From: Argopecten irradians
Lineage: Eukaryota; Mollusca; Bivalvia; Pectinida; Pectinidae
Reading direction: 5' to 3'
NCBI RefSeq assembly: GCF_041381155.1
Contig: NC_091134.1
Coordinates: forward strand, 65,456,969-65,520,968
DNA length: 64,000 nt
The position numbers were made by a program, and so were the translations under genes. Positions 2,530 through 62,298 of this stretch are shown here, piece after piece; position 1 is the stretch's first letter, and each line of letters starts with the position of its first letter. The notes beneath the pieces are model-generated. The model was given only the letters and a program-made list of their open reading frames with translations, searched no databases and had not been told where the DNA came from.

Positions 2530-5500
2530 CTGAAAATCATTTATTTTTTCATAAATACTTTTTATACAATCTTATTCAGTTAATGTAACCTTACATACAT
2601 GTACTTGTATCTACAACAGCCTGGATTTCGAGGACATTTAATGTCGAAAAGTAAAGTGATGAATATTTCACAAGGTATAACCTTGATATATTGATTTTTT
2701 TCATACATACTTTCTGTTATGTGACTTTCATACTTACAACCAATAAAGGAACAATAACACTCCTGGACTCGACACTGCTATTTGGAGTTGTCGCCAGTCT
2801 CGCAGGAAGTAGGCGGCGCCACTGAGAATCACTTCCCCTAGACACCATGCTAATTCCACTGCCACTGCAGCGTGCGACCTGTGGTCGCTGTCGACACTTT
2901 CAAATACTACAAAAAACATGGGTATAAAATTTCCGAAAATTGAAATCAAGAAATAACCAAATATTGCCAACAATAAGAATGATAATACAGGAATAACGAC
3001 AAATGAAAACAAAATATTGCTAATGAAAAACAATGAAAACAAAAACATCATAAAGAGCAAAATCAATAAAAACAGCTAGAAAAATCGACCACTAATTCAA
3101 AACGGAAACATATACAAATAAAAAAAATCAAGAAAAATGTATGGTTTGTGCAAAGATTAAACGGAAATCATATTACTCATTTATTTAAGTTTAATGACAT
3201 AATGTTTATCATGAGTTTGATTTACATACTCTGAACATATTGATACTGGTTATGTACAGTCTAAAGCGTGAATGCATATTTTACAGCAAAATGAACATAC
3301 GTATATTTCAAAAACATCATTCAGCACCTTTTTGAACAAGGTTGTTATGATTTACCAATTATCATAGCTGAACCTATGCAGCTGATAGTGGCTGCTCCCG
3401 AGATGAACCGAAGGGTAACGAACATGATATAGTTTACAGACCAGGCATTTGCTAGAGATGATCCGAAAAGTAATATGGCGCCAATATACATCACGATCTT
3501 TCTTCCCCATCTGGAATAAACCACAAAATACTTAAATGCCAAATTCATCAAAAATAATTGATTTGTATTCTTCCTCGTAGTCAAAACAAAGTATTTTATA
3601 TATCCAGGTTATACTAGTATCATTCCTAAGTACACGATGAGTTGGTTTGAGATCAAACATTTTTAAACACTAATAGTATCGTGTTAAACATGACGTTAAT
3701 AGAACACACATACAGTTATTTGTATGGTACCTTCCCAAAGTGAGAGTGAAGTTGATCATACTTTACAGGAGCGCAAACGTCCTCTACGTGATGTACGACT
3801 GTCGCCGTAAGTCTAGGACAAGTGTTAATTTTATCACAGTTTAACCTACGAATTCGAACAATGGCGTAATTGAATAAGCATGTTCTTATTGCTTTAATGT
3901 AACTTCTAACTAAAAACGATAGCAAAACATACGTTATATTACAATTTTAGTATAAACCTATTTATGTTTGGTATAACAAGTCTTTTACGATAATAAAATC
4001 TGATTTCCTTACGTGTCTCCGACGGAACCAAGCATGAAAGAGCCAAACAGATTACCACCCAAAAACACCATACTGGCATGCTGTGTTAGGACGGCATCGT
4101 CACAGACTAGGTTAAACTACAGACAGATACAAATATTCGTCACGAACTAGGCTACATTAAAGAAAGGAATATGATAAATAGTATAGATTTATTTCTGTTG
4201 ATTTTTATAAATTGATAAATGGAATGCACGACCTTATTAGGTACTAGACATAGTTACAGTGTGACCTTCAACCTTCTAGACAATTAAGATAATGATATGT
4301 TAGGATGGCCTTACATCCGATATAGGAGATCTGGTGAGCTCCCTGGTGTCATATGTCCATGAACTGCAGACGTCTGTCTGTGTGTTGTTTGTACCGTTAA
4401 TGAACACATCAACTGAGCACTGTGACGTATTCAGCGTTACATAGGACTTAATGTCACCAAAGTGGTTCTGTTCTATGTAGCTAGTAACATTGTTCTTGAG
4501 CGCGTCTTTTTCGAGTTGTATCTGGCACCTGTTAATTAAAAGATATTGAATGTAATTAACTACATTGAATAAAACTGAATTATGTTTTCACAATGACATC
4601 AAATAAATTTAGGCTTACTGAAATAATTGTTTCTACAAGAATGCCTGACCAGTAGCCGTTTTTAGACACGTATGACTTACCAGTAGTCATATCTTACCGG
4701 TAGCAGCAGTACAAAGCACAACGCTCGAGGACTTCAAAGCACACATCCCCTACACAGTCCATGAAGCTTTCACATCCATATAATTACAACAAATATGTTT
4801 ATTGTTTTTTTCACATCCACTATAACTGAAGAAACACAATGTGTTAATTGTTTTTTAGTAAAACCAAAGCCACATAATCGTCGACTACGATTGAGTGGTC
4901 TAACCACAATAAGATATCTAGACACGATATGACTTACCAGTAGTCATATCTAGACACGATATGACTTACCAGTAGTCATATTTAGACACGATATGACTTA
5001 CCAGTAGTCATATTTAGACACGATATGACTTACCAGTAGTCATATTGAGACACGATATGACTTATCAGTAGTCATATTGAGACACAATATGACTTATCAG
5101 TAGTCATATTGAGACACAATATGACTTACCAGTAGTCATATTGAGACACAATATGACTTACCAGTGACCATGTCTAGACACGATTTGACTTGCCAGAGAC
5201 CATTTTACATGTTTAGAAACGATATATCTTACCTGTGGTCATGTCTAGACACATTATGACTTACCAGTGACCATATCTAGACACGATATGACTTACCAGT
5301 GACCATGTCTAGACACGACATGACTTACCAGTGACCATGTCTAAACACGAAATGACTTACCAGTGACCATGTTTAGAAACGATATGACTTACCAGTAACC
5401 ATGTTTAGTCACAATATGACTTATCAGTGACCATGTTTTGACACAATATGACTTACCAGTGATCATTTTTTGACACGATATGACTTACCAGTGACCATGT

Positions 5501-6109
5501 TTAGACACGATATGACTTACCAGTGACCATGTTTAGACACAATATGACTTACCAGTGATCATGTTTAGACACAATATAACTTACCAGCGATCATTTTTTG
5601 ACACGATATGACTTACCAGTGACCATGTTTAGACACGATATGACCTACCAGTGACCATGTTTAGACACGTTATGACTTACCAGTGATCATTTTTTGAACG
5701 ATGTGACTTACCAGTGACCATGTTTAGACACGTTATGACTCACCAGTGATCTTTTTGACACGATATGATTACAGTGATCATGTTAGACACGATATGACTT
5801 ACAGTGATCATTTTGACACGTATGACTTACCGGTGACCATGTTTAGACACGATATGACGATATGACCTACCAGTGACCATGTTTAGACACGTTATGACTT
5901 ACCAGTGATCATTTTTAGACATGATATGATTTACCTGTGGCCACGTCTAGACGCAATATGACTTACCAGTGGTCATGATTAGATAGAATGAAAACTGGTA
6001 GCAATGCCTGTATCGATATCAAAATCTGCGGGAACATCACCAACATGACAAGTACTATTTGATATCTGCCGAACCCTCCAATTTCCTTAACAATGTCGTC
6101 AAACTGCAT
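2317..6109 (-). CDS. SLC22-family organic ion transporter (5' two thirds, six exons)
   Basis: Six minus-strand exons join in frame at every junction (143, 214, 104, 155, 169 and 213 nt; about 332 residues). The predicted protein begins MQFDDIVKEIGGFGRYQ, the usual SLC22 start, followed by TM1. Next comes a large cysteine-bearing extracellular loop with several N-glycosylation sequons (NVT, NTS, NGT, NNT). It ends with CSSWTYDTRE, and the next exon opens FNLVCDD, both hallmarks of organic cation/anion transporters. TM2 follows, then the MFS loop GSVGDTWGRK (Thr where the family usually has Arg), TM3-TM6, and the cytoplasmic PESARWFLSKG motif. Family members are about 540-600 residues, so roughly the last 40% (TM7-TM12) is missing and presumably lies beyond the left edge. 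A plasma-membrane facilitator of organic ions is inferred from family; the substrate is unknown. Confidence 0.9.
2738..2906 (-). CDS. SLC22-like exon 5
   Basis: Acceptor TTTGTAG after a T-rich tract. Encodes VFESVDSDHRSHAAVAVE and TM5-TM6 with RDWRQLQIAVSSPG, a typical SLC22 stretch. Donor GTAAGT, phase 2. Confidence 0.87.
3356..3510 (-). CDS. SLC22-like exon 4
   Basis: Acceptor TTCCAG. Completes GDTWGRKIVMY, then TM3 and TM4 (LRFISGAATISCIG). Donor GTAAAT, phase 1. Confidence 0.85.
4013..4116 (-). CDS. SLC22-like exon 3
   Basis: Acceptor CTGTAG, encodes FNLVCDDAVLTQHASM and TM2 up to GSVGD, donor GTAAGG in phase 2. FNLVCD is the family-wide motif following the big loop. Confidence 0.88.
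4315..4528 (-). CDS. SLC22-like exon 2 (extracellular loop)
   Basis: Acceptor AACAG, phase 2 in and phase 0 out (TCGGAT|GTAAGG). It encodes CQIQLEKDALKNNVTSYIEQ through CSSWTYDTRELTRSPISD, the glycosylated loop between TM1 and TM2. Confidence 0.88.
4915..5960. repeat. 32-bp minisatellite made of SLC22 exon-1 splice-donor copies
   Basis: About 33 tandem units of 31-32 bp. On the minus strand each contains CACTG|GTAAGTCATAT followed by GTGTCTAAACATG, i.e. the last bases of exon 1, its donor and the first intron bases. The real exon-1 junction at 5967/5966 is the first unit in transcription order. An outlying unit sits near 4661-4690. Spacing is disturbed between about 5690 and 5860. Confidence 0.9.
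5967..6109 (-). CDS. SLC22-like exon 1
   Basis: Coding exon 1 holds the start codon at 6109-6107 and encodes 47 residues, MQFDDIVKEIGGFGRYQ then TM1. It ends in phase 2 (TG|GTAAGT) within the Trp of NHDHW. The donor is the first of a long series of donor-like repeat units. The start is chosen because the N-terminus matches the family; an untranslated exon may lie upstream. Confidence 0.88.
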
Positions 6110-19375: not shown

Positions 19376-20870
19376 CTGCAATAGATCAAATTAAGATAAT
19401 GAAGTATAACATTGGTTACACAATAGATCAAAGAAAGATAATGAAGTATAACATTGGGATACACAACAGATCAAATTAAGATAATGAAGTATAACATTGG
19501 GTTACACAATAGATCAAATTAAGATAATGAAGTATAACATTGGGTAACATAAATAGATCAAATTAAGATAATGAAGTTATATAACGTTGGGATACACAAC
19601 ATATCAAATTAAGATAATGAAGTATAACATTTGGATACACAACAGATCAAATTAAGATAATGAAGTATAACATTGGGTTACACAATAGATCAAATTAAGA
19701 TAATGAAGTATAACGTTGGGATACACAACATATCAAATTAAGATAATGAAGTATAACATTTGGATACACAACAGATCAAATTAAGATAATGAAGTATAAC
19801 ATTGGGTTACACAATAGATCAAATTAAGATAATGAAGTATAACATTGGGTTACACAATAGATCAAATTAAGATAATGAAGTATAACATTGGGTTACACAA
19901 TAGATCAAATTAAGATAATGAAGTATAACATTGGGTTACACAACAGATCAAATTAAGATAATGAAGTATAACATTGGGTTACACAACAGATCAAATTAAG
20001 ATAATGAAGTATAACATTGGGTTACACAATAGATCAAATTAAGATAATGAAGTATAACATTGGGTTACACAACAGATCAAATTAAGATAATGAAGTATAA
20101 CATTGGGTTACACAACAGATCAAATTAAGATCAAATTAAGATAATGAAGTATAACATTGGGTTACACAATAGATCAAATTAAGATAATGAAGTATAACAT
20201 TGGGATACACAACAGATCAAATTAAGATAATGAAGTATAACATTGGGTTACACAACAGATCAAATTAAGATAATGAAGTATAACATTGGGATACACAACA
20301 GATCAAATTAAGATAATGAAGTATAACATTGGGATACACAATAGATCAAATTAAGATAATGAAGTATAACATTTGGGTTACACAATAGATCAAATTAAGA
20401 TAATGAAGTATAACATTGGGTTACACAACAGATCAAATTAAGATAATGAAGTATAAACATTGGGTTAACACAACAGATCAAATTAAGATAATGAAGTATA
20501 ACATTGGGTTACACAACAGATCAAATTAAGATAATGAAGTATAACATTGGGTTACACAACAGATCAAATTAAGATAATGAAGTATAACATTGGGTTACAC
20601 AACAGATCAAATTAAGATAATGAAGTATAACATTGGGTTACACAACAGATCAAATTAAGATAATGAAGTATAACATTGGGTTACACAATAGATCAAATTA
20701 AGATAATGAAGTATAACATTGGGATACACAACATATCAAATTAAGATAATGAAGTATAACAGTGGGATACACAATAGATCAAATTAAGATAATGAAGTAT
20801 AACATTGGGTTACACAATAGATCAAATTAAGATAATGAAGTATAACATTTGGGATATCAAATTACGAAAA
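19376..20870. repeat. 43-bp minisatellite (regular part)
   Basis: About 35 copies with core AAATTAAGATAATGAAGTAT. Copies differ mainly at GGGTTACAC versus GGGATACAC and AATAGATC versus AACAGATC. Confidence 0.92.
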
Positions 20871-22130
20871 TGAAGATTTAACATTTGGATACACAACAGA
20901 TCAAATTAAGATAATGAAAGTATAACATTTGGGTTACACAATAGATCAAATTAAGATAATGAAGTATAACTATTGGGATATCACAATATATCAAATTAAG
21001 ATTAATGAAGTATTACGTTGGGATACCATCACAACAAAGCAAATTATAGATAATGAAGTATAACATATGAGATACCCAACCAAATAAAATTAAGATAATG
21101 GAAGTATAACAATTGATACACAACAATCAAATAAGATAATGAAGTAAACATTTTGATACACAACATATTCCAATTAGATAACAGTATATATGGGATTACA
21201 CAATAGACAAATTAAGATAATGAAGTATACATATACACTTCAAATTGAAGATAATGAAGTATGTATTGGGATACACACATGCCACAAATTAAGATAATGA
21301 GAGTATCAACATACACAAAGATCAAATTAAGTTAATAAGACCTCACACATATCTGATCAAATAATGAATATACACATATTTGTTCAAATTGATAAAAATA
21401 ACAAAAAAACTATTAAGATAATGAAGTATAACAAGGGTTAACAATACATATCAAATTAAGATAATGAAGTTATACACACAGATCAAATTACAGTTAAGAT
21501 AATGAGAAGAAATAGATATGATTGATAATGAAGTATAACATCGTACACAATCAATTAAAATTAAGATAATGTTGAAACATTGGGATACACAACAGATCAA
21601 ATAAATGAAGTTAAGCCCTTGCATGAAACAAATCATGGGCATACACATCAAATCAAATTAAGTGAACGTATAACATATTACACAACAGATCGATAATTAT
21701 TTCTTGATATTGAGTATTAGTAAGATTGTTACACAATAGATAATTAGATAATGAAGTATAACCGTTAAATATGAATATACACATGTTTACGTACTAACAT
21801 GATGGATTACAGATAATTATACATGTAGTTAGCACAACATCAGATAATGTTCATACATTGGTTTAATAATAGATCAACATCATTCCATATCATCTCATTA
21901 TACAATCATCAACTTAACTATTAAAACATTGGGTTTCAGATCACTCTTTAAGATAATGAAGTATAAATGTTTGATACACAACATTAATGGACGATAACAG
22001 TTGGGTAAGGATCAATCTAAGTATTTCATTGTATACTACAAAAGATGTCAAATTACAGATAATGAAGTATAACATTGACACAAAGGATGTAAGATAATGA
22101 AGTATAACATTTACACAACATAATCAATGG
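20871..22130. repeat. 43-bp minisatellite, badly degenerate part
   Basis: The same 43-bp words (GATAATGAAGTATAAC) persist but spacing and sequence fall apart, with many small insertions and deletions. The change from near-perfect to strongly scrambled copies is abrupt at about 20870. Confidence 0.8.
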
Positions 22131-23511: not shown

Positions 23512-23714
23512 CTGACAGACAGTTTCAGGACATTTTCCTGTCAGAACAGAAGTACAATGTTCTTCACAAGCTAAGACAGACGTAAATGTAGGATGTAGGA
23601 TCGCTGGAGCCGGATTATTACACAGACGATCTGGTATCCTGGAACCGGTCACACAGGTTAATGAACAACTTGACCAAGTATTAGGATCAGTTCCATGATT
23701 ATGATTGCCGTCAA
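23512..23714 (-). pseudogene. Damaged TSP1 exon copy (exon 10)
   Basis: Recognisable by [30 protein letters not shown] and an intact donor CAG|GTATGT. It is 203 nt instead of 171, so the phase rule of its sisters is broken. The extra bases include GATCCTACATCC (a 26-bp-repeat word) and TTTACGTCTGTCT (a 35/37-bp-repeat word). The exon body still reads open, but two TSP1 cysteine spacings and the second half are altered. It is either a pseudo-exon or an assembly error. Confidence 0.75.
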
Positions 23715-26700
23715 CTGAAACAATACAATCATAATGAGTAGAATATATGAATATCTTAGTCTTATTACATATCTATAATGACAGAATATATGTAAATATT
23801 AGATCAGAACACAGACGTAAATACAGTACCACATATGATGAACGCTATCTGTACAGTTATGTACGGTACATGCCATCATAATTGGATGTAGGATCAACAA
23901 TCACATATCTCATAATGGATGTAGGATCAGTACCATCATAATGGATGTAGGATCAGTATCATCATAATGGATGTAGGATCAGTATCATCATAATGGATGT
24001 AGGATCAGTGTCATCATAATGGATGTAGGATCAGTATCATCATAATGGATGTAGGATTCAGTACCATCATAATGGATGTAGGATCAGTACCATCATAATG
24101 GATGTAGGATCAGTACCATCTTAATGGATGTAGGATCAGTACCATCATAATGGATGTAGGATCAGTACCATCATAATGGATGTAGGATCAGGTTCCAGTA
24201 CCATCATAATGGATGTAGGATCAGTACCATCTTAATGGATGTAGGATCAGTACCATCATAATGGATGTAGGATCAGTACCATCATAATGGATGTAGGATC
24301 AGTACCATCATAATGGATGTAGGATCAGTACCATCATAATGGATGTAGGATCAGTACCATCACAATGGATGTAGGATCAGTACCATCATAATGGATGTAG
24401 GATCAGTACCATCTTAATGGATGTAGGATCAGTACCATCATAATGGATGTAGGATCAGTGTCATCATAATGGATGTAGGATCAGTGTCATCATAATGGAT
24501 GTAGGATCAGTGTCATCATAATGGATGTAGGATCAGTACCATCATAATGGATGTAGGATCAGTACCATCATAATGGATGTAGGATCAGTGTCATCATAAT
24601 GGATGTAGGATCAGTGTCATCATAATGGATGTAGGATCAGTACCATCATAATGGATGTAGGATCAGTACCATCATAATGGATGTAGGATCAGTACCATCA
24701 TAATGGATGTAGGATCAGTACCATCATAATGGATGTAGGATCAGTACCATCATAATGGATGTAGGATCAGTACCATCATAATGGATGTAGGATCAGTGTC
24801 ATCATAATGGATGTAGGATCATAGTCCATCATAATGGATGTAGGATGTAGGATCAGTAGGATCATCATAATGGATGTAGGATCAGTACCATCATAATGGA
24901 TGTAGGATCAGTCATCATAATGGATGTAGGATCAGTACCATCACAATGGATGTAGGATCAGTACCATCTTAATGGATGTAGGATCAGTAGCATCATAATG
25001 GATGTAGGATCAGTGTCATCATAATGGATGTAGGATCAGTACCATCATAATGGATGTAGGATCAGTACCATCATAATGGATGTAGGATCAGTACCATCTT
25101 AATGGATGTAGGATCAGTACCATCATAATGGATGTAGGATCAGTGTCATCATATTGGATGTAGGATCAGTACCATCATAATGGATGTAGGATCAGTACCA
25201 TCATAATGGATGTAGGATCAGTACCATCATAATGGATGTAGGATCAGTACCATCATATGGTCATAATGGATGTAGGATCAGTACCATCATAATGGATGTA
25301 GGATCAGTACCATCATAATGGATGTAGGATCAGTGTCATCATAATGGATGTAGGATCAGTACCATCATAATGGATGTAGGATCAGTGTCATCATAATGGA
25401 TGTAGGATCAGTACCATCATAATGGATGTAGGATCAGTACCATCTTAATGGATGTAGGATCAGTGTCATCATAATGGATGTAGGATCAGTACCATCTTAA
25501 ATAATGGATGTAGGATCAGTACCATCATAATGGATGTAGGATCAGTACCATCATTATGTCGGATGTACGGTCGATCCTAAAAATTGATTGACGGTACGAC
25601 CTGTGTCCTAAAATTGATTACGGGTCGACCTCTGTCCCCGAACCTGTCACAATATTCCTTTCCGTCGATAACTATGAAGGAGATGAATATTGCAGGTGTT
25701 TTATTGGGGTCGTTACATAACTAGACATATATAATACGATAGGAGACAGTACATACCTGGACACGGAGTTTCAGCACATTTTTCTGTATCAGAAGCTTGC
25801 CCTTCACACTGAAGGCCTTCGTTCGCTGGAGCCGGATTATTACACAGACGAGATCTGGTCTTGGAACCGGTCCCACAGGTTAATGAACAACTTGACCAAG
25901 TATTCCATTCTCCCCATTTGCCGTCAACTGAAACAATATATCTAGAAATATGAATATCTTAGTCTTATGTATATCTGGACATGATATTATATAGGTAAAT
26001 ACATTCCTAGACATGAACGTCTGGAGTTGTGTACGGTACATGCCATCATACAGATCAACAATCACAAGACTAATGAAACCTCCACATATATCTGATATCT
26101 ACGTTAGAATATTTAGTGTCACATTGAAAAATAAAATGAATTACTTTTCTAGAGAGATAAGAAAAATTATGTAACGCGTTAACATCTCGTTTTTTACACG
26201 TTAGTTATCTCCTTCAAACATCAAGAAAAGAGATATTGATAAAATCACAGTCATTCTAATGCTTGAAGAGCTTGGGGCACTGTCATAATTCAAGCCCTTG
26301 CATGAAAAAATCATGAGTTGTCTCTTTTACTATATTCTTAACGCGATAATTATTCTCGATATTAACGCGTTAGTAAGCTGTTTTAACGAGTTAGTTATCT
26401 CGTTTTAACCCGTTAAATATCAATATACACATATACGTACTAACATGCATGGATTACAGTCAATTCTGTCTTAGCGACCACATTGACATAAAGTTCATAT
26501 GTTTAATAAGAGCATTTCCACAGGGTCTCATATAATCAAACTTAACTATTAAAGCCGTTTTTCTGTGATGGTCTTTGTAGACATGTTTGTACATCTTAGA
26601 CGAAACTAGTTTTGTAAGAGGTTTGATCAATCTAGGCCTATTTGCTTGTACAACTACAAAAGATGTCTATTACAAATGCACATTGACATAAAGCTAATAT

Positions 26701-29700
26701 GTAATATTTTAATCACAATGGATATAGGATCAGTACCATCATAATGGATATAAGATCTGTGTCCATAATGATAGATGTAAGATCAGTGCCATCACAATCA
26801 ATGTAGGATAAATACCATCAATGTAGGATAAATACCATCAAAATAAATGTAGGGTCAGTACCATCATAATGGATGTAAGTACAATCATTAATGGATGTAG
26901 GATACAGTACCATCATAATGGATGTAGATCAGTAACCATCATAATGGATGATAGGTCTGTACCATCATTATGGATAAGGATCAGTACCAATCATAATGGA
27001 TGTCGGATCAGTATGCATCATAATGAATCGGAATAAGTACCATAAATGAATGTAAGATCAGTACCCATCACAAAGATGTAGGATCAGTACCATCCATCAA
27101 TGGAATCATACATCATTAATGGATGTAGGATCAGTACCATCATAATGGATGTAAGATCATCATAATGGATGTAGGATAATAATACGGATGTAAGTCGGAT
27201 CAGTACCATCAAACGGATGATGTCTCCCTTCACTGTCATCACAATAGAAGTTAGGATTCAGTGGTCATTTTAATGAATGTAAGATCAGTACCATCACAAT
27301 GGATGTAGGATCAGTTCATCATAATGGATGTAAGATCAGACCAGTACAATGGATTAATGAATGTTACATCATAATGGATGTAGGATCAGTACAATCATAA
27401 CGGATGAAGGATCACACTGCCAACACAATAGATGTATAGGCAGTATCATTATAATGAATGTAAGGATCAGTATCATCATAATGGATGTAGAGATCAGCTT
27501 CATCATAAATGGGGAATGTAAGGATCAGTATCATCACAATGGATTAAGGATCAGTACCATCACAATGGATTAAGGATCAGTACCATCACAATGGATGTAG
27601 GCTATCATTTGCCATCACACATGTGATAAATGATAAGTGTCATCACAAAAGATGACAACAAATGTTTCGTCCAATACAAAGACAAATGATAACAAGAAAA
27701 AACACACAGACACGCCTACTCGAAAACCGTAGACTTAGAAGACATCACAATTTGTACCAGTTTTTCTACTTAAATCGACAGTTCTGATGTTAGCGAGATT
27801 GTAAACTATTCCGTCTGCCCTGAACCGATTGACGGACGATCTACGAACAAGTGTCCTGAAAAATTGACTTTTACTGGGTCGACCTCTGTCCCCGAACCTG
27901 TCACAATATTCCTCTCCGTCAATAACTATGAAGGACATGAATATTGCAGATGTTTTTATTCAGGGGGTCGTTACACAACTAGACATATAATGATACAATA
28001 GGAGACAGTACATACCTGGACACGGAGTTTCAGCACATTTTTCTGTATCAGAAGCTTGCCCTTCACACTGAAGGCCTTCGTTCGCTGGAGCCGGATTATT
28101 ACACAGACGAGATCTGGTCCTGGAACCGGTCCCACAGGTTAATGAACAATTTGACCAAGTATTCCATTCTCCCCATTTGCCGTCAACTGAAACAATATAT
28201 CTAGAAATATGAATATCTTAGTCTTATTTATATCTGGACATGATATTATATAGGTAAATACATTCCTAGACATGGAGATAGCTACAGATATCAATATACA
28301 GATATCAATATACACATAGGCATGGATAAAGCCTGGAATTGTCTACGCTCCATACCATCAAAAAGATCAACAATCACAAGATTAATAAAACCCAATGGTG
28401 GAACAATAGAAACATTTGCAGAAAGAGCTGACGTTATGAATGAGATCTTTGTGAGTCCCTTTGTTGAAGATCAAAACAAAAAGATCTACTTCAATTCCCA
28501 AATCTAAATTTTATAAAGCCATTGACACATTGAAATTACAAAAAAGACCTGGTTGAATCATCCGAAAGTAATCAAGAAAACCAAAGACTTTAGATCAACC
28601 CCTAACTGAAGAAAAAAACACCGACACGCCTAGTCGAAAACCGTGTCTAAGGAGACACCACATTGTAGCAGTTCTACTTAGATTAACAGTTTAGATGTTT
28701 CCCGTTCTTATCTTTCACTGACAAATTCCATGTTCGATAGTATGACAGATGAACTTACATGAGGGTTGTCTTCTGCTGTTTGAAACTATTCTTCTCGCAG
28801 ATTTTCTTCAATTCACCTGCTTGCATTATTTCTACGTAAATATTTGTAGCTCACACACTCTCTCTTAAAATACACCAAACCAAGACCTGTTTATTTTGCT
28901 TATTGACTTTTAAAGTATCAAATGTTATCCTATTGAAAATCGATTCTCTCCCCAAACCGATTGCCGGTCGGCATGTGTCCCCAAACCGACTGACAGTCAA
29001 CATTTGTCCCTAAAACCGATTGATTGGCGGTCGGCCTGTGTCGCCAAAAACCGATTGGCTATTGACCTGTGTTCCACCAAAATAATTTTTACGGGTCAAC
29101 CTGCGTCCCCAAAACCGATTGACGGTTGATATGTGTCCCCAAATCGATTTGACGGTCAGACAGACTGTGGTCCCCCAACCGTTTGATGGTCGACATGTGT
29201 CCCCAAACTGATCAAATCACAACAACATCCCTTTTTTTCTCCGTCGATTTGTTCAAAGAATAAAGCACTTACTATTTATGTAATGAAGAGGTTATAAAAC
29301 ATTGATGTCCATCCCTAATATTAACGAAAACTATCAAAAAACTATGAATCACGAACACATTTGTGGAGGCATTCCACGTAGTTTGTCAAATTGTTTCAGA
29401 ATGGCTTCTCTAAGTAGTTCTTTCTTTATGTATATTTCTTTAAATTAATTTAGTGTGAATGTGTGTGTAAGAAATGAATATTGCAGATGTTTTATTGGTG
29501 GTCGTTAGATAACTAGACATATATAATACAATACAGATTGGTACATACCTGGACACGGAGATTGAGTACTGAGATTGGTACATACCTGGACACGGAGATT
29601 GAGTACTGAGATCCGTACATACCTGGACACGGAGATTGAGTACTGAGATCCGTACATACCTGGACACGGAGATTGAGTACAGAGATCGGTACATACCTGG

Positions 29701-32700
29701 ACACGGAGATTGAGTACTGAGATCCGTACATACCTGGACACGGAGATTGAGTACTGAGATCGGTACATACCTGGACACGGAAAATGAGTATAGAGATCGG
29801 TACATACCTGGACACGGAGATTGAGTACTGAGATCCGTACATACCTGGACACGGAGATTGAGTACTGAGATCGGTACATACCTGGACACGGAGATTGAGT
29901 ACTGAGATACGTACATACCTGGACACGGAGATTGAGTACTGAGATCCGTACATACCTGGACACGGAGATTGAGTACTGAGATCCGTACATACCTGGACAC
30001 GGAGATTGAGTACTGAGATGTACATACCTGGACACGGAGATTGAGTACTGAGATCGTACATACCTGGACACGGAGATTGAGTACAACTAGAGATACGTAC
30101 ATACCTGGACACGGAGATTGAGTCAGAGATCGTACATCCTGGACACGGAGATTGAGTACTGAGATCGTACATACCTGGACACGGAGATTGAGTACTGAGA
30201 TCGTACATACCTGGACACGGAGATTGAGTACTGAGATCCGTACATACCTGGACACGGAGATTGAGTACTGAGATTGGTACATACCTGGACACGGAGATTG
30301 AGTACGAGATTACTATTAGAGATGAGTACTAGATTGGTACATACCTGGACACGGAGATTGAGTACTGAGATTGGTACATACCTGGACACGGAGATTGAGT
30401 ACTGAGATACGTACATACCTGGACACGGAGATTGAGTACTGAGATGTACATACCTGGACACGGAGATTGAGTACTGAGATCGTACATACCTGGACACGGA
30501 GATTGAGTACTGAGATCGTACATAACTGGACACGGAGATTGAGTACTGAGATACGTACATACCTGGACACGGAGATTGAGTACTGAGATTGGTACATACC
30601 TGGACACGGAGATTGAGTACTGAGATTGGTACATACCTGGACACGGAGATTGAGTACTGAGATTGGTACATACCTGGACACGGAGATTGAAGTACTGAGA
30701 TTGGTACATACCTGGACACGGAGATTGACGTACTGAGATTGGATATACATACCTGGACACGGAGATTGAGTACTGAGATTACGTACATACCTGGACACGG
30801 AGATTGAGTACTGAGATTGGTACATACCTGGACACGGAGATTGAGTACTGAGATTAGTACATACCTGGACACGGAGATTGAGTACTGAGATACGTACATA
30901 CCTGGACACGGAGATTGAGTACTGAGATCCGTACATACCTGGACACGGAGATTGAGTACTGAGATTGGTACATACCTGGACACGGAGATTGAGTACTGAG
31001 ATTGGTACATACCTGGACACGGAGATTGAGTACTGAGATTGGTACATACCTGGACACGGAGATTGAGTACTGAGATTGGTACATACCTGGACACGGAGAT
31101 TGAGTACTGAGATTGGTACATACCTGGACACGGAGATTGAGTACTGAGATCCGTACATACCTGGACACGGAGATTGAGTACTGAGATTGGTACATACCTG
31201 GACACGGAGATTGAGTACTGAGATACGTACATACCTGGACACGGAGATTGAGTACTGAGATACGTACATACCTGGACACGGAGATTGAGTACTGAGATCG
31301 GTACATACCTGGACACGGAGATTGAGTACTGAGATACGTACATACCTGGACACGGAGATTGAGTACTGAGATCCGTACATACCTGGACACGGAGATTGAG
31401 TACTGAGATCCGTACATACCTGGACACGGAGATTGAGGACTGAGATTGGTACATGCCTACTGAGACTGAGATACGTACATACCTGGACACGGAGATTGAG
31501 TACTGAGATTGGTACATACCTGGACACGGAGATTGAGTACTGAGATTGGTACATACCTGGACACGGAGATTGAGTACTGAGATTGGTACATACCTGGACA
31601 CGGAGATTGAGGACTGAGAGATCGGTACATACCTGGACACGGAGATTGAGTACTGAGATCCGTACATACCTGGACACGGAGATTGAGTACTGAGATTGGT
31701 ACATACCTGGACACGGAGATTGAGTACTGAGATCGGTACATACCTGGACACGGAGATTGAGTACTGAGATACGTACATACCTGGACACGGAGATTGAGTA
31801 CTGAGATTGGTACATACCTGGACACGGAGATTGAGTACTGAGATTGGTACATACCTGGACACGGAGATTGAGTACTGAGATACGTACATACCTGGACACG
31901 GAGATTGAGTACTGAGATTGGTACATACCTGGACACGGAGATTGAGTACTGAGATTGGTACATACCTGGACACGGAGATTGAGTACTGAGATTGGTACAT
32001 ACCTGGACACGGAGATTGAGTACTGAGATCGGTACATACCTGGACACGGAGATTGAGTACTGAGATACGTACATACCTGGACACGGAGATTGAGTACTGA
32101 GATTGGTACATACCTGGACACGGAGATTGAGGACTGAGATACGTACATACCTGGACACGGAGATTGAGTACTGAGATTGGTACATACCTGGACACGGAGA
32201 TTGAGTACTGAGATTGGTACATACCTGGACACGGAGATTGAATACTGAGATACGTACATACCTGGACACGGAGATTGAGTACTGAGATTGGTACATACCT
32301 GGACACGGAGATTGAGGACTGAGATTGGTACATACCTGGACACGGAGATTGAGTACTGAGATACGTACATACCTGGACACGGAGATTGAGTACTGAGATT
32401 GGTACATACCTGGACACGGAGATTAGATGAAGGTACATACTGAGATTGAGGGATGTACATACCTGGACACGGAGATTGAGTACTGAGATTGGTACATACC
32501 TGGACACGGAGATTGAGTACTGAGATTGGTACATACCTGGACACGGAGATTGAGGACTGAGATACGTACATACCTGGACACGGAGATTGAGTACTGAGAT
32601 ACGTACATACCTGGACACGGAGATTGAGTACTGAGATTGGTACATACCTGGACACGGAGATTGAGGACTGAGATTGGTACATACCTGGACACGGAGATTG

Positions 32701-35700
32701 AGTACTGAGATACGTACATACCTGGACACGGAGATTGAGTACTGAGATTGGTACATACCTGGACACGGAGATTGAGTACTGAGATTGGTACATACCTGGA
32801 CACGGAGATTGAGTACTGAGATTGGTACATACCTGGACACGGAGATTGAGTACTGAGATCGGTACATACCTGGACACGGAGATTGAGTACTGAGATCGGT
32901 ACATACCTGGACACGGAGATTGAGTACTGAGATTGGTACATACCTGGACACGGAGATTGAGTACTGAGATCGGTACATACCTGGACACGGAGATTGAGTA
33001 CTGAGATACGTACATACCTGGACACGGAGATTGAGGACTGAGATTGGTACATACCTGGACACGGAGATTGAGTACAGAGATCGGTACATACCTGGACACG
33101 GAGATTGAGTACTGAGATCCGTACATACCTGGACACGGAGATTGAGTACTGAGATCGGTACATACCTGGACACGGAGATTGAGTACTGAGATCCGTACAT
33201 ACCTGGACACGGAGATTGAGTACTGAGATCGGTACATACCTGGACACGGAGATTGAGTACAGAGATCGGTACATACCTGGACACGGAGATTGAGTACTGA
33301 GATCCGTACATACCTGGACACGGAGATTGAGTACTGAGATCGGTACATACCTGGACACGGAGATTGAGTACTGAGATCCGTACATACCTGGACACGGAGA
33401 TTGAGTACTGAGATCCGTACATACCTGGACACGGAGATTGAGTACTGAGATCCGTACATAACTGGACACGGAGATTGAGTACTGAGATCCGTACATACCT
33501 GGACACGGAGATTGAGTACTGAGATCGGTACATACCTGGACACGGAGATTGAGTACTGAGATCCGTACATACCTGGCCACGGAGATTGAGTACTGAGATC
33601 CGTACACACCTGGACACGGAGATTGAGTACAGAGATATGTTAATACCTGGACACGGAGTTTCAGCACATTGCCCTGTATCAGAAGCTTTCCCTTCACACT
33701 GAAGGCCATTGTGCGCAGGAGCGGGATTATTACACTGACGAGATCTCGACCTGGAGCTGGTCCCACAGGTTAATGAACAACTTGTCCAAGTATTCCATGC
33801 TCCCCATTTGCCGTTAACTGAAAGGAAAGGTAAATTACCCGAGTGAGGAAAAATAAATATGTCTCCTTTCAACTCTACTTTCAATTCAAAACTCCAACGT
33901 CTTCAATATAGAATTGATCATATAATCCTTAGAACAAAGTCTTTTTTTCAAATCGGTAAATCTAACAATTATTTATGTTTCTTCTGTAAAACACAATTTC
34001 AAACAATAACACATATCTTATGAAATTGTGATTAGAAAAAAATATCCAACTTAAATGAAAATTCGGGAATTAATATTAGAACAAAGAATATTGACCTTAG
34101 ATTTGATAAACCAGAATAAATTTTTGGTAAACACATCAAAAGGTCACCAAAAGTTTCACATACACAATGTAATTCTATTGACAACAAAACATTACTTATA
34201 TCAAAACAAATGTCTCGAAATTGCTCTTAACCTCACCAGTTTAAGAAACCATTTTATTTGAACTAGGAGCTCTGAAAAGCCGTGTTTCGACCACAGAGTA
34301 CACATATGAATTTCAATTAATTACTCAAATAAACGAATGGTTACAGTTCCTTCTCTTAATTTCTGCTAGAATCATTATACAGTAAATCCTTTTTATTTTT
34401 TGTATAGCTAACAGACATACATGTGTGTTTCTGCTTTTGTCCTTTTGTTAGCTGTTTTTTTCCTTGTGTCTATTTTTGTTGTTTAGACTATTGTCTGTTC
34501 GTCTTACATATTATAGGTGTATGTACTATGCTTGAATTGTCTTTCTTTTTTTATCTCCACACAATTATACCTACACATCACTTATGTGTTATACATAATT
34601 CTTATCCACATGATTTGAATCACCATACAGCTATAAAACAGTTCTTTCTATCAAGTTTCATCTTTCTAAGAGTCAATCATTTTAACTAAGCTTATACAAC
34701 AGTCAACAATCATTGCATGGTAAAAGAATGCTGCGAATGTGTCGGTCGGGTATGATTGCATTTCATCGCAGAGGAACCTGCATCGCCGTATGGAACATAG
34801 GAAAAGGACGTGTGGAAAGAAATCGCCTTTTATATTTTGAGGGAGTTTGCTAAAACAGAGGCCTGGGGTATTTTTTTTTATCTTGAGGTGTTAGAATGAA
34901 CGTATGCCGTCCAATGTGCTCGATATTTTGATCGGAAAAAGGAAGTATGAAACTGTATCTGGAAATAATATTTAGTAAATATTTTCTGGTGTAAATTCTA
35001 GCGTTCTCGTTTTTAATTCTACCATGTCGACTTATCCGCTTGTCCTACATTACATAAACATATACCTGGGCAATAGATAAGGTGACAATGTGTCGACAAT
35101 TCGCTGTCCATTGTCTTTGGACAATACACTCCACTGTTTTCACCAAACGTGCTGGAACACTTGCGGGTCCTTGATTTTGTTCCTTCACCACAAGTCCTTG
35201 AACACTGTCCCCAACTGCTCCATTCTTCCCAGGAACTTTTAACTTATAAAGTGGCTTCATTATTCAGTCAGGTCGAAAAATTCAACTAGCAATATTTTAT
35301 AAGAGTTATTGGTCTTAGGAAAAGTTGGAGGAAACAGCAAACAACCTCTAACCAAATTATCGGTTTTATACTCACATGTGTAGCTATTAGGAGAATTACA
35401 ATCTGCACACTTCTTATATAACACAGGAATGTTATAAATTGACAAGTACAATCTCCCACCCAAATGTTACATGAATGTAGTATTATATTTATTTGTTCAT
35501 TCAGCCTGTATGTCCTTTTATTTATTTTAGCCCTGCGTAACTCAGATGACCTTAACTTGAATATAAATGCAGGCAAATTTTATTCTATTGTAAAAACAAG
35601 TAAAATCCTGGAAATTAATGGCTAATTAATACCTTACTGACATTACAATTTTTTTGTGTATGACCTCATAGACCCAAAAGATATAATGATTAATTCTTAA

Positions 35701-61071: not shown

Positions 61072-62298
61072 TTATGCCCAGACACTTGTGAATTGTTCTA
61101 CATCATACCCCGTCTCAGTAAACCCAAGGTCACGGTAAAGGTCTAGTAGTTTCTGTCTCGCATGTTTTATACTCGTATTGCTCAGCGCTACAAGATGGCA
61201 GAAGCCTATCGGGAACGTTTTGTCGTCACCATGCATGTCTACCGTATCGTGTCGCATTTGCAGAAGAATAGACTTTGATTCAGCCAAGTTCTTCAACTTT
61301 GCATTGACCTCTTTCTTCAAAAACTGTTTTCCGTGCAAATGACTGTAAAGATGAGTTCCAACAGCGAAGCATCTGATCGATATATCTGGGAAAGATGGTT
61401 TAATTCCACAAGCAATGGCTGCTGCGATCTCCCACAGAATAACGCCATGTGTAGTCTTGTACACGATACTTCGTCGATATCCACCTATTCTGCCGTTGAT
61501 TTCGACGAGTTTTGGACCTGATTTCGTCATCTTCCACTCCGTATTGAAAACTCCGTGGAGTAAACCGACTTTACAGCAAGATTGGTGAGCGGCGGTGTGA
61601 AGCTGCTGTTGGAAATCCATACATAAGTTGGTAGGGTGACAAGTGACAGTATCCACCAATCTGTTTGACATGTAGAGACCGATATCAGCTATAAAGGCGG
61701 CGAGGAACTCTCCATCATAGATGACCACGTCAACATTGTAGGAAAGACCTTCTAGAAACTCCATCAGAACCATCGACTTCCCAAAATTCCCTCCGAAATA
61801 GGATGATTCGAACCGTTTCTGTAGTTTGTTGTATTGCAGAAGACAATCATCTTGCGACATGACTTTTGTAACACCCCACGACCCTGCGTCATTTTCTGGT
61901 TTTAAAACAGCAGGGTATTTTATTTTCTTTGCCTCTGTAATGTCCTTCTCGTTTCGGATACGATAGGAAATTGGAGCATACTTTTCCGTGTCAAATAAAC
62001 TTTTGTTTCCGTTGGATCTGAGAGTGTCATAAGTGTTCTGCTTACTCCTCACTGTCATTGCCGCCTCGGGAAGGACCCCTCGGAGTCCCACTTTTTGACA
62101 TAGGACAGCTGTTATTGGTGTATCCTCTTCAGTAAACGTAAAACACCCATCGATATCTAGAACTTGCTTTCCGAGGAGTCGAATGATATTATCAACGTGA
62201 GCATCGATATCTGACTGGTCGTTGTAGTAATCATACCGAATTACGGTGTCAACTTTGCTCTCTTGGTCACTTAAAGCTTTATGTGTCACCAAAACGAC
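61072..62298 (-). CDS. Carnosine-synthase-like ATP-grasp protein, terminal exon
   Basis: One 1227-nt exon (408 residues plus stop) opens after acceptor TTTGTAG in phase 0 with VVLVTHKAL. The exon holds a complete ATP-grasp fold: the nucleotide-binding YPAVLKPENDAGSWGV (Lys near residue 133), VLMEFLEGLSYNVDVV, DGEFLAAFIADIG, and the metal-binding LVEINGRIGG (Glu, Asn, Arg near 266-270). The sequence most resembles carnosine synthase (CARNS1), which ligates beta-alanine to histidine using ATP; other dipeptide or amino-acid ligases of the superfamily remain possible. The N-terminal exon(s) with the start codon are not visible and probably lie right of 64000. The reading frame is undamaged. Confidence 0.82.
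   Translation of the reverse strand, partial: VVLVTHKALSDQESKVDTVIRYDYYNDQSDIDAHVDNIIRLLGKQVLDIDGCFTFTEEDTPITAVLCQKVGLRGVLPEAAMTVRSKQNTYDTLRSNGNKSLFDTEKYAPISYRIRNEKDITEAKKIKYPAVLKPENDAGSWGVTKVMSQDDCLLQYNKLQKRFESSYFGGNFGKSMVLMEFLEGLSYNVDVVIYDGEFLAAFIADIGLYMSNRLVDTVTCHPTNLCMDFQQQLHTAAHQSCCKVGLLHGVFNTEWKMTKSGPKLVEINGRIGGYRRSIVYKTTHGVILWEIAAAIACGIKPSFPDISIRCFAVGTHLYSHLHGKQFLKKEVNAKLKNLAESKSILLQMRHDTVDMHGDDKTFPIGFCHLVALSNTSIKHARQKLLDLYRDLGFTETGYDVEQFTSVWA

Follow-up and report, generated by a model that had tools for sequence, protein, structure and literature searches.

The splice-donor array behind TSP1 exon 7

What becomes of an exon whose 5′ splice site is followed by a long row of copies of itself? 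This question is raised by a gene with TSP1 domains on the minus strand of a 64,000-nt window of the bivalve Argopecten irradians genome (assembly GCF_041381155.1, contig NC_091134.1, positions 65,456,969 to 65,520,968; coordinates below are those of the window unless stated otherwise, and exon numbers follow the first-pass annotation of this DNA). Directly behind exon 7 of this gene stands a 37-bp minisatellite whose unit joins the end of the exon to the start of the intron.

Tandem Repeats Finder (TRF) places the array at 29535-33658, with a period of 37, 110.7 copies and 88% matches; an alternative 111-bp reading scores higher (92%). We parsed the minus strand with a fuzzy match to the 20-mer CTCCGTGTCCAG/GTATGTAC as anchor (the slash marks the splice site throughout), at most five mismatches being allowed, and obtained 109 units. 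The exact 20-mer stands in 102 of these and CAG/GTATGT in 105, and the GT is kept in 107. The deviant donors are those of unit 1 (GTATTA), unit 2 (GTGTGT) and units 6 and 84, where GT has become TT, while the over-long units 33, 59, 89 and 93 hold further degenerate pieces. In the whole assembly (845,758,899 bp) the 20-mer occurs 104 times, always on the minus strand: the array accounts for 102 of these occurrences, and the two places that head the list fall on the donors of exon 9 and exon 8. The unit thus holds the donor of a real exon, the array starts at that border, and most units are donor-like, so that it can be called a splice-donor minisatellite. Within the unit, positions 21-22, the dinucleotide directly behind GTATGTAC, are hypervariable (CA, GG, GT, CG or deletions), the remainder being nearly fixed.

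These counts refine the earlier description of the locus. The array that it announced is there, but its "about 110" tandem donors come to 109 units by our parse, 107 of them with GT, and the 20 bases of the exon 8 and 9 borders, said to be in each unit, are exact in 102 units and altered in the others. The array does adjoin the exon 7 donor at 33647, where it had been said to begin; its true start lies at 33658, 12 nt within the exon. The transcript would indeed offer a row of near-identical donors, 107 donor-like GT sites in all, but the one at 33647 is itself among the few that are degraded and atypical. Nor did that description foresee the human precedents (IFI6 and ABCA7) or further cases on other borders of this genome.

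Origin on the exon border

Exon 7 with its edges (33643-33823) shares 90% identity with exons 8 and 9. At the far end of the array, the last unit and the intron that resumes behind it are 84% and 87% identical to the stretches around the exon 8 and exon 9 donors, respectively. Because both flanks match the borders of these sister exons, the array sits exactly at the old 5′ splice site. The proposal that it expanded inside the splice site itself, with intron homologous to that behind exons 8 and 9 resuming after it, is borne out by these flanks and by the content of the unit. When exon 7 and the first unit were searched against the whole assembly at the DNA level, array-type matches among the best candidates were confined to this locus. 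The sequence shows that the array arose at the 5′ splice site of this TSP1 exon: a 37-nt stretch over that site was tandemly duplicated and its copies multiplied to 109, against a genomic background rich in tandem arrays.

Unit 1, which contains the native donor, reads GTATTAAC. The two sister borders have GTATGTAC at this place, as do nearly all units, so that the exon 7 donor, with its +5 G lost, shows the derived state. Units at the edge of an array escape homogenisation, which may account for this degraded donor.

The introns behind exons 8 and 9 carry minisatellites of their own (26712-27601 and 23910-25558), with 26-bp units that are homologous and about 78-80% identical; these are perhaps older than the exon duplication. 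Downstream of exon 9 lies a decayed TSP1 exon with inserted sequence (23515-23715, minus strand).

Donor choice and its consequences

Which of these sites would the spliceosome take? We scored donors by the energy of the duplex with the U1 5′ end. The native exon 7 donor, which has lost its +5 G, reaches -7.2 kcal/mol and is the third-weakest of the 109, compared with -9.7 kcal/mol for 104 units and for the donors of exons 8 and 9. The other units score -10.2 (one unit), -9.1 (unit 2) and -3.0 kcal/mol (the two units without GT). Among the 4394 GT dinucleotides on the minus strand of the window, only 115 attain -9.7 kcal/mol: 105 in the array, the two at exons 8 and 9, and eight elsewhere.

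To follow the reading frame, each of the 109 unit ends, the two GT-less ones included, was joined conceptually to exon 8. The 34 in-frame donors (units 1, 4, 7, 10 and so on) comprise 29 that read without a stop through exons 8 and 9 and five that stop in the array. The other 75 are out of frame: exon 8 brings 64 of them to a stop and the array the remaining 11, so that 16 joins in all stop within the array. In the four in-frame joins shown (units 1, 4, 7 and 10) the PCP/VDGKWG junction is restored.

Most of the array would leave the transcript with a 5.46-kb intron, of which it forms the 5′ portion. The original donor lacks its +5 G, whereas the copies that follow retain theirs; for this reason splicing probably draws on a mixture of the leading units and not on 33647 by itself. 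About one donor in three would keep the frame, adding residues in multiples of roughly 37 ahead of the TSP1 domain that follows; the majority of the rest would lead to a stop in exon 8 and to degradation of the transcript. A longer array would be expected to shift the donor mixture or to cause skipping of the neighbouring TSP1 exon, as in human ABCA7. Such skipping would be frame-neutral, since the 171-nt exons are symmetric. It is plausible, given that about every third donor is in frame, that 29 of the 109 fusions are open and that array length has an effect in ABCA7, that copy number could alter protein length or splicing at this locus. An adaptive role is unnecessary here, and the array may be a tolerated by-product of mutation.

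The anatomy of the locus is close to certain. For its splicing, a mixture of the leading donors is our best estimate, and we give it a probability of about 0.58. Three points weigh against it. The donor score is crude. The donor core shows no more constraint than the linker: among the 93 units whose length is exactly 37 nt (the 16 of other length, including the last, cut one, were dropped), differing cells number 6/1860 in the core and 3/1209 in the linker, the latter counted outside its sites 21, 22, 28 and 31, where variants are shared. Finally, in ABCA7, retention of one unit amounts to 2 ± 1% in brain tissue, the first GT there being the canonical donor (PMC5954066).

The main alternative to mixed donor use is an inert intron, in which the donor at 33647 is used exclusively and the other 106 GT copies are decoys that are spliced out. 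It gains from the principle of exon definition, which would favour a short exon. The rarity of one-unit retention in ABCA7 points the same way (PMC5954066). The native donor, however, is weaker than the copies and lacks the +5 G that both sister exons have kept, and we regard exclusive use of 33647 as unlikely, if still a serious contender.

Selection, recursive splicing and artefact

Could the length of the array and its in-frame donors be maintained by selection, as a device that varies the spacing of TSP1 domains? The 37-bp unit is stop-free in every frame, and the frame of exon 7 stays open as far as 30125; from stop to stop (33902 to 30123) it spans 1259 codons. However, 13% of shuffled 37-mers are stop-free as well, and stops are present in all three frames of the array, the first in the two other frames lying at 30318 and 32425, with a further one at 33642, at the very start of one frame. 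Frame openness alone is therefore no evidence of selection, and selection on the frame finds no support in the position of these stops. Variant units recur at every third unit (match at lag 3 of 0.406, against a null 99% of 0.321), but the match is above its null at lag 8 as well (0.376) and, by a small margin, at lag 1 (0.324); the 111-bp period is thus real, yet not uniquely tied to codons. The unit length is no multiple of three, and core substitutions are, outside the four shared sites, no rarer than those of the linker. Among the 15 internal units that are longer or shorter, 13 keep the exact 20-mer, which cannot count as constraint because the parse was anchored on that core. A 301-nt piece of the array folds as RNA no differently from its shuffles (z = 0.04). 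We consider a selected device of this kind improbable.

The array might also act as a ratchet for recursive splicing, every CCAG/GTATGT serving as acceptor and donor in turn, so that the array is removed stepwise and the product is unchanged. AG/GT is present in nearly every unit, and positions -5 to -20 hold 11/16 pyrimidines, close to the 10/16 of the exon 8 and 9 acceptors (13/16 at exon 7). The longest pyrimidine run is five in the unit, as at exons 8 and 9, and 11 at exon 7. Against such a ratchet, the unit contains no branch-like yTnAy word and no pyrimidine run above five, and a spacing of 37 nt is too short for splicing between neighbouring units. We judge it very improbable.

There is little to suggest an assembly artefact, whether a wrong copy number or a spurious array. 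Tandem arrays are often mis-sized in assemblies, but the window contains zero N bases, the differences among copies are ordered, the array has both its flanks, and arrays of similar size occur elsewhere in our sample. This sample, made up of the region and ten 10-kb pieces at round-number positions, holds 33 tandem arrays (period at least 12, at least four copies), which cover 56,850 of its 263,969 bases. In such a genome an unrelated intronic minisatellite might resemble a donor by chance, but the 12 exact exon-end nucleotides in register and the match of 20/20 nt to two sister borders make this barely credible.

Arrays on the borders of a neighbouring gene

Is the TSP1 array an isolated accident? 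Next to the TSP1 gene is an SLC22-type gene, situated partly in the window and partly in the 50-kb flank on the low-coordinate side. When exons 5-8 of this gene are joined conceptually, the frame is kept across AG/GT borders; together these exons match TIGR00898 at 1.3e-61 with 208.9 bits (for half of the protein; the whole-protein cut-off is 550.75) and align with OCT1 at 1.3e-36, across the junctions concerned. Exons 2-4 are placed only roughly. All three arrays of at least four copies (TRF) in this gene are on exon borders, two being donor-born and one acceptor-born. Of 31 matches in the 32-bp array at exon 1, 27 are donor-like sites with GT, and an in-frame stop stands directly at its first donor. 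The 69-bp array spans the acceptor of exon 6, which was read directly from the sequence and checked by joining the exons: the first exon base is at -2062, and 39 of the 46 units found have CAG at the site. ACGGT is common to the intron and exon sides of the unit ends, which would suit a first duplication mediated by microhomology.

In the TSP1 gene one of four arrays of at least four copies is on a border. For both genes together the count is 4/7, where 0.43 would be expected (P 0.0003), and 3/6 without the TSP1 exon 7 array (P 0.003); the test is small and post hoc, covers only arrays of at least four copies, and uses gene lengths and border counts (14 and 8) set by hand. Also on the minus strand, a 43-bp array (19379-21340) stops directly at a possible acceptor, TATTGCAG, ahead of an open reading frame (ORF).

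Arrays elsewhere in the assembly

Among the matches listed in the assembly we found nine other arrays, chosen solely for three tandem copies of CAGGTAAGT or CAGGTATGT. The upstream edge was fetched for six; four of these were readable, the pieces for the other two (L050 and L052) lying wholly inside their arrays. Two of the four abut an exon-like border. One (L054) adjoins an immunoglobulin-domain exon (I-set, 6e-8). The other (L053, C1:39.31 Mb) adjoins an ORF with acceptor and donor; this yields no match in Pfam or PDB, and the exon call is accordingly made from the ORF, acceptor and donor. No exon was seen upstream of the remaining two (L049 and L051).

Are arrays over-represented at donor words in general? 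Arrays were counted by hand among the matches listed and compared with those of the reversed words, which are not gene-matched; the first control list was whole. CAGGTAAGT forms four arrays in the first 6.47 Mb listed, and its reversed word 14 in 845.8 Mb (10-fold excess, P 0.001). For CAGGTGAGT the figures are nine in 71.1 Mb and two in at least 243 Mb (4.6-fold, P 0.03). CAGGTATGT shows no excess, with five arrays in 42.35 Mb and nine in 198 Mb (1.0-fold, P 0.58). AAGGTAAGT, with 845 triples against 180, was left out of the array count. The excess is seen in two of the three words only, the counts were made by hand and the reversed words are not gene-matched, so that a hot spot of array birth at donors is suggested rather than shown. 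In the assembly as a whole, CAGGTAAGT, CAGGTGAGT and CAGGTATGT are each 2.5 to 3.6 times commoner than their reversed words, and presumably these are real donors.

It is tempting to generalise. Exon-intron borders may be preferred birthplaces of minisatellites in this genome, with arrays at 5′ and sometimes 3′ splice sites being common, perhaps in hundreds of genes, and their copy number retuning splicing; we put this forward tentatively and hold it to be possible rather than probable. Recurrence within one genome is more interesting than the single locus. If border-born arrays truly recur genome-wide, they would provide a mutational route to variation in splicing and protein length between individuals, and a handle on why minisatellites start where they do. 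The TSP1 array by itself, with 109 near-identical donors behind one exon, amounts to a natural experiment on how the spliceosome chooses among equal sites. Exons of this kind are also likely to defeat gene predictors and short-read mappers.

Table 1. Features of the TSP1 and SLC22-type genes, in window coordinates (negative positions lie in the low-coordinate flank)
Feature	Position	Strand	Remarks
37-bp minisatellite	29535-33658	minus	109 units, 107 of them with a GT donor; unit of 12 nt from the exon end and 25 nt from the intron start
Unit 1	33622-33658	minus	end of exon 7 and native donor CAG/GTATTA (derived, +5 G lost)
Stop-free stretch in exon 7 frame	30126-33658	minus	units 1-92 and part of 93; first in-frame stop 30125
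Last unit and resumed intron	29471-29569	minus	84%/87% identity to stretches around exon 8/exon 9 donors
TSP1 exon 7	33647-33817	minus	171 nt, phase 1-1; acceptor TTTCAG/TTAACGG; Pfam TSP_1 2.6e-10
TSP1 exon 8	28016-28186	minus	171 nt, phase 1-1; donor 20-mer 28008-28027; TSP1 by similarity to exon 7
TSP1 exon 9	25757-25927	minus	171 nt, phase 1-1; donor 20-mer 25749-25768; TSP1 by similarity to exon 7
SLC22-like exon 1 (coding part)	5967-6109	minus	donor CTG/GTAAGT
32-bp array, SLC22-like exon 1	4919-5983	minus	donor-born; unit about 13 nt exon + 19 nt intron
69-bp array, SLC22-like exon 6	-2090 to 1510 (1-1510 in window)	minus	acceptor-spanning; tandem acceptors
53-bp array, SLC22-like exon 7	-4467 to -3543	minus	donor-born; about 42 nt exon + 11 nt intron; GT in 15/16 units

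Apart from these genes, the window contains an ATP-grasp ORF of 408 amino acids (61075-62298, minus strand; ATP-grasp_4, 1.7e-12), and a similar ORF lies outside it at 84238-85566.

Comparison with known systems

In the literature searched, which was limited by licence and covered by titles and the beginnings of abstracts, we found no account of such an arrangement in molluscs or bivalves, and no description of several donor- and acceptor-born arrays in neighbouring genes of one genome. Intronic repeats of earthworm metallothionein genes (PMC12783039) and two further reports (PMC4039745 and PMC6692358) were considered and set aside.

The closest precedents are human. In the variable number tandem repeat (VNTR) of ABCA7 intron 18, the first two bases of a 25-bp unit are the exon 18 donor, and alleles have about 12 to 427 units; retention of one unit is rare and shifts the frame, and skipping of the next exon grows with VNTR length (PMC5954066). 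As in the TSP1 gene, the minisatellite lies directly behind an exon and includes the donor. The ABCA7 unit, however, opens with GT, so that the array starts at the GT and its first donor is canonical, whereas the TSP1 unit includes 12 nt of exon, is open in all frames and has a degraded first donor. The effects were measured in ABCA7 and, for the TSP1 array, are predicted from sequence.

The donors of the minisatellite in human IFI6 (6-16/G1P3), whose unit is 12 bp, were reportedly studied by Turri, Cuin and Porter in 1995. That minisatellite, too, offers several donors, with a short unit there and 109 units of 37 bp here. Two of its downstream repeat units are used as donors (PMC4526556).

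A broader comparison is offered by internal tandem repeats at human exon-intron boundaries, the subject of a study said to be by De Grassi and Ciccarelli. Their expansion alters splicing and can make introns, in duplicated genes (PMC2812944). Those repeats average about 30 bp in four copies and belong to segmental duplications, in contrast to the hundreds to thousands of bases found here. Introns can also be gained through tandem duplication of AGGT segments (PMC4974935); tandem copies with splice signals are common to both cases, but there a new intron arises within an exon, whereas here an existing border was amplified.

With IFI6 and ABCA7 as close precedents, the TSP1 array is a member of a known, if rarely reported, kind. 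What distinguishes it is its length, the exon sequence in its unit, the openness of that unit in all frames and the degraded state of its first donor.

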